A stretch of 47,169 nucleotides of DNA from Bacilli bacterium (GTDB taxonomy: Bacteria > Bacillota_I > Bacilli_A > Izemoplasmatales > Hujiaoplasmataceae). The position numbers and the translations under genes were made by a program. This document shows, in pieces, positions 810 to 2,758 of the stretch. The stretch is from NCBI GenBank assembly GCA_018399755.1, contig JAGYOE010000007.1, forward strand, positions 1-47,169. Direction: 5' to 3'. The number at the start of each line of letters is the position of its first letter. Positions within the stretch are counted from its first letter, which is position 1. The notes under the pieces are model-generated. The model was not told the DNA's origin, did not search any database, and was given only the letters and a program-made list of their open reading frames with translations.

Positions 810-837
810 AATTACATAGGAAATTAAGAGGTGGAAC

Positions 838-1233
838 ATGAATATGATATTAATAATGGCAAATATCTTTACTTGGTTAAAATATAATTTTTGGTGGCTT
901 CTAATTTTATTAGTTTTAATTATTGTTGTTATAGCTTTAATAAGGCTTTTAAACTATCAAAAAGGCACAGAAAAACTGCCTGTTGAAGATGAAACGATTA
1001 ATGATTTTATTGATTGTTATGGAGGAATTAAAAACATTAATAAAGCTGAACTTGAAGGTTCAAGACTTAAGGTTAATTTAAAGGATATAAATAAAGCAAA
1101 TATAGATAAATTTAAAGCTTTAGGCGCAACTGGCATTTTTATTTCTGGAAACAACATTAAAATGGTTTTACCATATGATATGAGTAAACTAATTGAAAAA
1201 ATAAATAATGATAAATTTGGAGGAAATCTATGA
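838..1233 (+). CDS. Membrane-anchored glucose-type PTS EIIB-like protein lacking the phosphocysteine
   Basis: 131 residues. One hydrophobic helix (about 18-38) is followed by a domain (about 53-121) that reads like the glucose-family PTS EIIB fold: GGIKNI, then SRLKVNLKDINK, LGATGI and ISGNNIKMVLP, corresponding to GG.ENI, TRLRV.L.D, LGA.GV and .GN.VQ.I.G in normal EIIBs. In those the phosphorylated Cys sits in D-A-C-I-T-R-L; here the aligned position is Glu73 (ELEGSRLKV). The only Cys (60) lies before the GG, not at the active site. It therefore should not carry phosphate from EIIA. No EIIC domain is present. It overlaps the next gene, a Crh-like protein, by four bases (ATGA), so the two are translationally coupled. 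The role is unknown; a membrane docking site or sensor that reads PTS state is plausible. Start at 838 follows GAGG 6 nt upstream. Confidence 0.75.
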   Translation: MNMILIMANIFTWLKYNFWWLLILLVLIIVVIALIRLLNYQKGTEKLPVEDETINDFIDCYGGIKNINKAELEGSRLKVNLKDINKANIDKFKALGATGIFISGNNIKMVLPYDMSKLIEKINNDKFGGNL

Positions 1234-1496
1234 TTGAAGAAAAATTTAAAATCACTTATCAAAATGGCTTACAGGCCCGTCCAGCCACTAAATTAGTATC
1301 TAAGGCAAACAGTTTTCAAGCAGAAATGTATATGGAATATGCAGATAGGAAAGTAAATTTAAAATCAATTATGGGTGTTTTATCTTTAGGTGTTCCTGGG
1401 GACAGTAAAATTAGAATCACTTTTTCCGGAAAAGATGAAGATGATGCTTATAAAGCAATATCTAGAATTATTTCTGATATTAATGAAATGGTGTAA
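1230..1496 (+). CDS. crh: Crh-like HPr paralogue (Gln15, Ser46)
   Basis: 88 residues with the complete HPr fold. The active-site segment reads GLQARPAT, so the His15 used for phosphotransfer from Enzyme I is Gln, exactly as in Bacillus Crh. The regulatory segment LKSIMGVLSLG keeps Ser46, the site that HPr kinase phosphorylates. A protein with Gln15 and Ser46 cannot pass phosphate to sugars but could act as a CcpA corepressor or bind enzymes. In B. subtilis crh is in the yvcI-yvcL operon; here it is between an EIIB-like protein and an MFS permease, a different setting, so the function is inferred from residues only. GGAGG six bases before the ATG gives a strong ribosome binding site within the 3' end of the upstream gene. 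A cre-like site lies before gap further along the window. Confidence 0.8.
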   Translation: MIEEKFKITYQNGLQARPATKLVSKANSFQAEMYMEYADRKVNLKSIMGVLSLGVPGDSKIRITFSGKDEDDAYKAISRIISDINEMV

Positions 1497-1498
1497 AA

Positions 1499-2758
1499 AT
1501 GTCCAAAATAAATGAACACAAAGGACAAATGCTCAAATTCGGAATGTATGGGTTCTTAAAAAATCTTCGTTTTTTTGAACCTTTTTTAATACTATTCTTT
1601 TTAGAAGTTGGAAATTTAAATCTTTTTCAAGTTGGAATATTAATTTCAATAAGAGAGATTATTATTTATATTGTCGAGATTCCTTCCGGAGTAATAGCTG
1701 ATTTGTATGGTAAAAAAACGCAATTAGTTATGTGTTTTTTATTTTATATATTATCTTTTATTACTTTCTTTTTTGGTGGACTATATCCTTCATTTTTTAT
1801 TTTTGTCTTAGCTATGGGTTTATATGGTTTTGGCGAAGCCTTCAGATCAGGAACTCACAAAGCGATGATTATGCAATTTTTAGATGTTGAAGATATAGAA
1901 GAGCCAAAAAGTGAAGTTTATGGTAAAACACGTTCTATGTCATTAATTGGTTCTACAGTGATGAGTATATTATCAGTAATTTTAATTCTTTGGGTTAAAG
2001 GTGAGTATCAATATTTATTCTTAATCGCAATTATTCCATATTCTTTAGATTTATTAATGATATTAACCTATCCAAAATATATGAATCATAGAAAAGAAAG
2101 CGAGTTTAAGCTTAAACAGTTTCTTAAAGAAAATTGGTTAAGCCTAAAATATGTTTTTAAAAAGCGAAAAGTACGCAACTTCGTTTTAGATGCATCAAGT
2201 TTTCAAGCAGGTTTTAAAAGTATTAAAGATTACATTCAGCCATTAGTAGTTACGGCTTCAATGGGATTTATATTGTTTAGCCAATTAGATACTGAAGAGA
2301 ATGAAAAGGTTTATATTGGGATTATATATGCAGTAATATATATTATTAGTGCTTTAGCTAGTAGAAATGCATATAAATTAGAAGATAAAGTTGATAAAAT
2401 AAAAGCGATTAATTCAGCCTGGCTATTTATGGGTGGTATTTCACTCCTGTTAGGTTTTTTCACGGAAAGTATTGTTATAATATTTGCGACTTTTACGATA
2501 ATGTATATAATCTTGAATTTACGAAGACCGATAATGGTGCAAGAAATTGGTGATGTTACTGAAGAAGGCAGAAGAGCAAGCGCATTAAGTATTCAAGCTC
2601 AATTAACTTCATTATTATTAGTTATTTTCGCACCAATTATAGGCTTAATTGCCGATTATAGTTTAGCGTTATTGTTTAAATTGGTTGGGATTACAATGAT
2701 AGCTATTTTTATAGTTACAACAATTACTAGAAAGAATCTAAATCAAAATAAAGCCTAA
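1499..2758 (+). CDS. Major facilitator superfamily permease
   Basis: 419 residues with about twelve hydrophobic segments in two halves split by a charged loop (about 195-225, rich in Lys/Glu). The first half contains IPSGVIADLYGKKTQ, the MFS loop 2-3 motif (G.laDr.GrR), and a second similar motif lies at GLIADYS near the end. Substrate cannot be assigned; the style resembles uncharacterised permeases and drug-efflux proteins of Firmicutes. The ATG begins two bases after the crh-like stop, without a clear separate ribosome binding site, so expression is probably coupled to the preceding two genes. Its place behind a pseudo-PTS pair makes a transporter whose activity follows carbon status an attractive but unproven idea. 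A strong hairpin terminator follows. Confidence 0.85.
   Translation: MSKINEHKGQMLKFGMYGFLKNLRFFEPFLILFFLEVGNLNLFQVGILISIREIIIYIVEIPSGVIADLYGKKTQLVMCFLFYILSFITFFFGGLYPSFFIFVLAMGLYGFGEAFRSGTHKAMIMQFLDVEDIEEPKSEVYGKTRSMSLIGSTVMSILSVILILWVKGEYQYLFLIAIIPYSLDLLMILTYPKYMNHRKESEFKLKQFLKENWLSLKYVFKKRKVRNFVLDASSFQAGFKSIKDYIQPLVVTASMGFILFSQLDTEENEKVYIGIIYAVIYIISALASRNAYKLEDKVDKIKAINSAWLFMGGISLLLGFFTESIVIIFATFTIMYIILNLRRPIMVQEIGDVTEEGRRASALSIQAQLTSLLLVIFAPIIGLIADYSLALLFKLVGITMIAIFIVTTITRKNLNQNKA

Follow-up and report, generated by a model that had tools for sequence, protein, structure and literature searches.

Two overlapping genes of an Izemoplasmatales genome were found to encode a membrane-anchored EIIB-like protein without its phosphorylatable cysteine and an HPr-like protein without His15, in a genus in which no working PTS phosphoryl chain (EI, HPr-His15, and EIIA and EIIC of the glucose type) was found. 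The favoured interpretation of these data, to which we give a little less than an even chance, is that the pair belongs to a dismantled PTS, in which an HPr kinase/HPr(Ser46) switch sits next to an EIIB domain that is non-catalytic, tethered to the membrane and used for docking, with a presumed contact between HPr and EIIB.

The overlapping gene pair and its products

The source genome is an Izemoplasmatales MAG of 1.23 Mb (80% complete) from a group of wall-less deep-sea bacteria, and it encodes one HPr and one EIIB. Its genus (g1; five congeners including CP076020.1) is taken to be Hujiaoplasma, including Hujiaoplasma nucleasis zrk29. The window, that is the whole stretch of 47,169 nucleotides analysed, opens inside a TnpB-like transposon gene that is cut by the contig start, so that only its end (INADLNASLNIIRK, positions 1-162) is present. 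The original prediction had placed two adjacent, translationally coupled genes at positions 838-1496, and its coordinates as well as its numbering of Glu73, Gln15 and Ser46 were confirmed (Table 1); the ATG of the HPr gene at 1230 overlaps the TGA of the EIIB-like ORF by 4 bases. A scan of the operon for promoters and terminators returned sites no more numerous than in shuffles.

Table 1. Features of the EIIB-like/HPr-like gene pair and its surroundings (window positions).
Feature	Position	Strand	Basis
SD-like AGAGGTGG ahead of EIIB-like ORF	827-834		Read from sequence
EIIB-like protein, membrane-anchored, cysteine-less, 131 aa	838..1233	+	ORF; EIIB by sequence and fold
Single N-terminal transmembrane helix, core aa 20-38	895..951	+	Hydropathy maximum; AF2 helix 3-40
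EIIB-fold domain, aa 51-127	988..1218	+	AF2 elements H51-60 to H116-127; Foldseek to 3bp3, 1o2f, 3bp8
Glu73 codon, column of EIIB phospho-Cys (GlcB Cys421)	1054..1056	+	Alignments
GGAGG ribosome-binding site of HPr gene, within EIIB-like ORF	1219..1223	+	Read directly
HPr-like (Crh-like) protein, 88 aa	1230..1496	+	ORF; PF00381 4.5e-25
Gln15 codon (CAG), position of HPr phospho-His15	1272..1274	+	Alignment
Ser46 codon (TCA), HPr-kinase site, kept	1365..1367	+	Alignment
MFS transporter, 2 bases 3' of HPr gene	1499..2758	+	PF07690 7e-20; outside conserved core (synteny)

The EIIB-like protein falls below the curated cut-offs of both Pfam and NCBIfam. Its match to PF00367 is weak (18.9 bits against a cut-off of 27); the glucose-type IIBC model TIGR02002 matches it with E=5e-8, and the solved EIIB domain of GlcB (3bp3) matches it by sequence with E=1.7e-4. 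An AF2 model based on 23 homologues gave a mean pLDDT of 85, and its top Foldseek matches all hold EIIB domains (TMt 0.81 for 3bp3, 0.81 for 1o2f and 0.83 for 3bp8). The EIIB fold is present and a phosphorylatable cysteine is not, as had been predicted: in the alignment with GlcB the Cys column is occupied by Glu73, and no Cys lies at the site. The protein is like the glucose-family EIIBs (PtsG/GlcB, PF00367) in its fold, its G-G-x-x-N-I start and an Arg or Lys at the Arg424 position; it is unlike them in lacking the phospho-Cys and an EIIC, in having a single-helix anchor of its own and in staying under the Pfam cut-off. Hydropathy peaks at 3.26 across 19 residues starting at residue 20, and basic residues after the membrane helix suggest that the EIIB domain is cytoplasmic. 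By its sequence, the domain is tied to the membrane and is unable to serve as a phospho-Cys carrier.

Both genes have dN well under dS and evolve under purifying selection. The EIIB-like protein is fast-evolving (57-71% identical to its congeners), and its gene is under purifying selection, with dN/dS of about 0.15-0.36 and dS near saturation. The HPr-like proteins of the genus are 84-94% identical, and the predicted exchange of His15 for Gln15 with Ser46 kept is constant in 5/5 species, the motif around position 15 being otherwise intact. With Gln15 in all five species and purifying selection on the EIIB-like gene, the observation is not a product of chance or error.

Bacillus Crh is a paralogue that exists alongside a normal HPr, in the presence of a working PTS, and is encoded in a different operon. 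The protein described here resembles Crh in Gln15, the retained Ser46, the presence of an HPr kinase and a similar length and fold; unlike Crh, it is the sole HPr of a genus without a PTS, and it scores nearer to HPr. Its closest solved relatives are Gram-positive HPr first (71.9 bits to 1ka5) and Crh next (57.5 bits). The Gln15 HPr probably arose separately from Bacillus Crh, as judged from its His15-bearing sisters within the host family in a tree that held no Bacillus Crh. A second HPr-like paralogue is present in many Izemoplasmatales (L059, L066, L050, L061, L064, L071, L074, L076, L080-L082). It keeps His15 and Ser46, has Arg17 and Pro18 replaced (GLHA[EKLQI][LI]A and similar), and, at both loci that were read, is encoded by a gene flanked by pgk and tpiA.

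Loss of the phosphoryl chain and of His15

The EI N-domain was not found in any of the five genus g1 genomes, two of which are single contigs that are 94-96% complete, and PF02896 was confined in the five congeners to ORFs of PPDK length. Glucose-type EIIA and EIIC were likewise not found in these five genomes, the search having covered glucose types only. An HPr kinase is present in all five congeners, and along its whole length, with the P-loop, it aligns to HPr kinases of known structure. With His15 lost from the sole HPr, the protein cannot carry PEP-derived phosphate, and with Ser46 and the HPr kinase kept, ATP-dependent formation of Ser46-P is the one known phosphorylation still open to it. 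Read from the genomes, no EI-dependent phosphorylation is possible for the HPr of this genus, and the system is very probably a PTS remnant whose HPr is Ser46-only.

The loss of His15 goes with the loss of EI throughout the host family. The EIIB-linked HPr keeps His15 in 22/22 genomes with an EI N-domain and has lost it in 7/7 genomes without any EI N-domain (Fisher p 6e-7, a value that overstates the evidence because only two or three independent events underlie it). Five of the seven genomes have Gln (genus g1) and two have Asn (G011 and G018, genus g8), and the third g8 genome, G024, retains both His15 and EI. The Gln and Asn HPrs fall in two separate clades of the tree, which points to two loss events in the host family. 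Outside the order, G117 (family f20) has an HPr with Thr15 and Ser46 (L197:1495-1755) and an HPr kinase, without EI; the EIIB-like gene of this genome is located apart from the Thr15 HPr gene. Note, however, that there are counter-cases outside the family, as His15 is retained in G097, which lacks EI, and in G063 and G064 (82-83% complete), where no EI was detected.

Stand-alone N-terminal halves of EI, 224-246 aa in length, were observed at L104-L109 and L113 (for example L104:2474-3145 and L106:2482-3216). They carry the His-bearing mobile domain without the PEP-binding half, with ispG or dnaX close by. Such a half is the only EI of about 12 host-family genomes, and the HPr keeps His15 in all of these.

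Conservation of the anchored EIIB family and its link to HPr

Among 92 small anchored EIIB-like proteins, a count that leaves out four canonical EIIB or EIICB stretches, the Cys is missing from the site in 91 (59/60 HPr-linked and 32/32 orphan), and the catalytic Arg424 position is Arg or Lys in 60/60 of the HPr-linked proteins. The sole Cys-bearing member, from G141, has a single helix and is encoded just upstream of ptsH and ptsI (L221:1908-2396); it may show what the ancestor of the Cys-less proteins looked like. An acidic residue fills the Cys column of 43 of the 59 Cys-less linked proteins, with Val, Ile, Gln or Thr among the others, and residues so varied leave a general phospho-mimic unsupported. 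The two phosphate-carrying residues that the original prediction had seen to be missing are both gone, but not in one event: the loss of Cys is old and near universal, and that of His15 is recent and limited to two lineages of the host family.

That the two genes belong side by side was upheld by the genome search, in which the EIIB-like and HPr genes were neighbours in six families within the orders searched (f1, f3, f10, f12, f16 and f23), 19 of the 47 pairs overlapping by 4 bases. A single clade (support 96/92) unites the linked HPrs of f1, f3, f12, f16 and f23; it also includes the long-branched HPr of G117 and excludes f10, and the pair thus looks like an old, vertically inherited unit. 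Ppa and TrpS remain neighbours of the pair across the order. In family f10 (L011, L012, L013, L015, L022, L023), the linked EIIB-like protein has several membrane helices and about 220 aa, and is separated from HPr by a gap of about 65 bases with no overlap.

The anchored EIIB-like protein also persists where no HPr was detected, in at least 16 genomes, and in G043 (99% complete), from which HPr, HPr kinase and EI are absent, its gene still lies beside TrpS. HPr therefore cannot be its only partner, and the pair as an obligate unit was not supported, the EIIB-like protein having outlived HPr in G043. It could be that there is no contact between the two proteins: the EIIB-like protein would have a membrane role of its own with another conserved partner, and HPr would stand behind it only by old operon order. 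This is an alternative of real weight, though we would not call it probable; the HPr-less genomes, the many unlinked copies and the gene kept in place in G043 are all consistent with it. It is opposed by the retention of the coupled pair across several families as the flanking genes change, by the single clade of the linked HPrs, and by the family f1 genomes with one HPr, which retain the EIIB-linked copy.

Possible roles of the pair

E. coli EIIB-Glc and Mlc (3bp8) set a precedent for an EIIB that is tethered to the membrane and on which a regulator docks, with the difference that the state of the Cys is the switch there and the EIIB-like protein here has no Cys. By analogy with the binding of Mlc by EIIB-Glc, the EIIB-like protein could be a non-catalytic docking domain that binds a protein, a role that we consider somewhat probable. 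Its ligand, where the genes overlap or abut, would be HPr, either with or without phosphate on Ser46; HPr is a candidate here, and only tentatively so. HPr kinase would then set the membrane occupancy of HPr, on or off with the energy state. The full form of this proposal, a PTS-free membrane module in which HPr kinase drives a Ser46-only HPr on and off a Cys-less anchored EIIB receptor, must be considered doubtful. In a normal PTS, HPr and EIIB each dock on EIIA and not on one another; if the two met directly here, that would be new.

The retained Ser46 could instead be read by a transcription factor. A LacI-family protein of the source genome has CcpA (1zvv, 1rzr) as its best solved relatives, at 199 bits against 114 for the next non-CcpA protein. 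Matches to the CcpA model were found in all five congeners. It could be, then, that HPr-Ser46-P acts through this CcpA-like protein in classical catabolite repression and that the EIIB-like protein is incidental. In Bacillus CcpA, Tyr295, Arg303 and Lys307 contact HPr-Ser46-P. In genus g1, Tyr295 is replaced by Thr, Arg303 by Ser or Ala and Lys307 by Gln or Glu, so that no CcpA with the three residues was found there, whereas 6/6 CcpA-like proteins of the sister family f3 keep them all. The Tyr295/Arg303 pair is lost throughout the host family (L212, L214, L215, L218, L222-L240), none of its other readable CcpA-like proteins keeping Tyr295 together with Arg303. The loss of these contacts makes the classical Ser46-P output doubtful in the genus, though Ser46 and the kinase are kept, and cre-like sites are not enriched within the window (4 found for 4.2 expected). 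A full CcpA mode was rejected on the lost contact residues, and the CcpA route as a whole is considered unlikely.

The original prediction also had the pair control the MFS permease encoded next. In all five congeners the MFS gene does lie just downstream, at a distance of 2-5 bases, and it is co-directional in g6 and g10; however, it follows the pair in genera g1, g6 and g10 only, is absent after it in six other genera of the host family (g2, g3, g7, g8, g9 and g11), and does not follow it in the A. laidlawii-type and other loci read. The gene joined the pair late, in three genera, MFS control as a common function was rejected on this synteny, and gating of the transporter by the pair is improbable. 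Decay of both genes as functionless relics heading to loss is the least credible alternative and was discarded, for although the genus has lost the PTS and the EIIB-like protein evolves fast, both genes have open frames, good ribosome-binding sites and dN well below dS, and HPr is well conserved around position 15 and Ser46. The predicted signalling module thus stands as far as both phospho-acceptors are gone and Ser46, the HPr kinase and the neighbouring pair are kept, and falls with respect to MFS control and an obligate unit. The loss of both acceptors suggests a part in signalling and not in sugar uptake.

Each half of the pair resembles something known, Crh on the one side and EIIB on the other. 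The pairing of a Crh-like protein with a Cys-less anchored EIIB had been thought undescribed, and in a literature search with little subscription content no described membrane-anchored Cys-less EIIB or EIIB-HPr pair was found. Reports on Brucella (PMC2937029) and Xanthomonas (PMC6916182) describe PTS or HPr kinase parts used in regulation without a full sugar PTS, and the present system is similar in retaining PTS parts, perhaps for regulation. It differs from Brucella, which keeps EINtr and NPr and with them a phosphate input of the EI type, in having neither such an input nor His15.

His15 has been lost repeatedly, within the host family exactly where the EI N-domain is gone, and this constitutes a natural experiment that splits the two jobs of HPr and in which Ser46 is retained when phosphotransfer through His15 can be dispensed with. 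As a family, the Cys-less anchored EIIB is widespread in the class, and none of the curated models used accepts it. HPr kinase occurs in nearly all Mollicutes, where no universal transcription factor accompanies it (PMC5138195), and an HPr that is the only one in its genome, lacks His15 and shares an operon with a membrane EIIB-like protein is a concrete candidate for an HPr kinase target there; the cultured H. nucleasis zrk29 makes tests possible. If the PTS-free module were true, HPr and EIIB would touch directly, in a way not used by the PTS, and the module would supply the effector so far missing for HPr kinase in wall-less bacteria that lack a CcpA able to read HPr-Ser-P.
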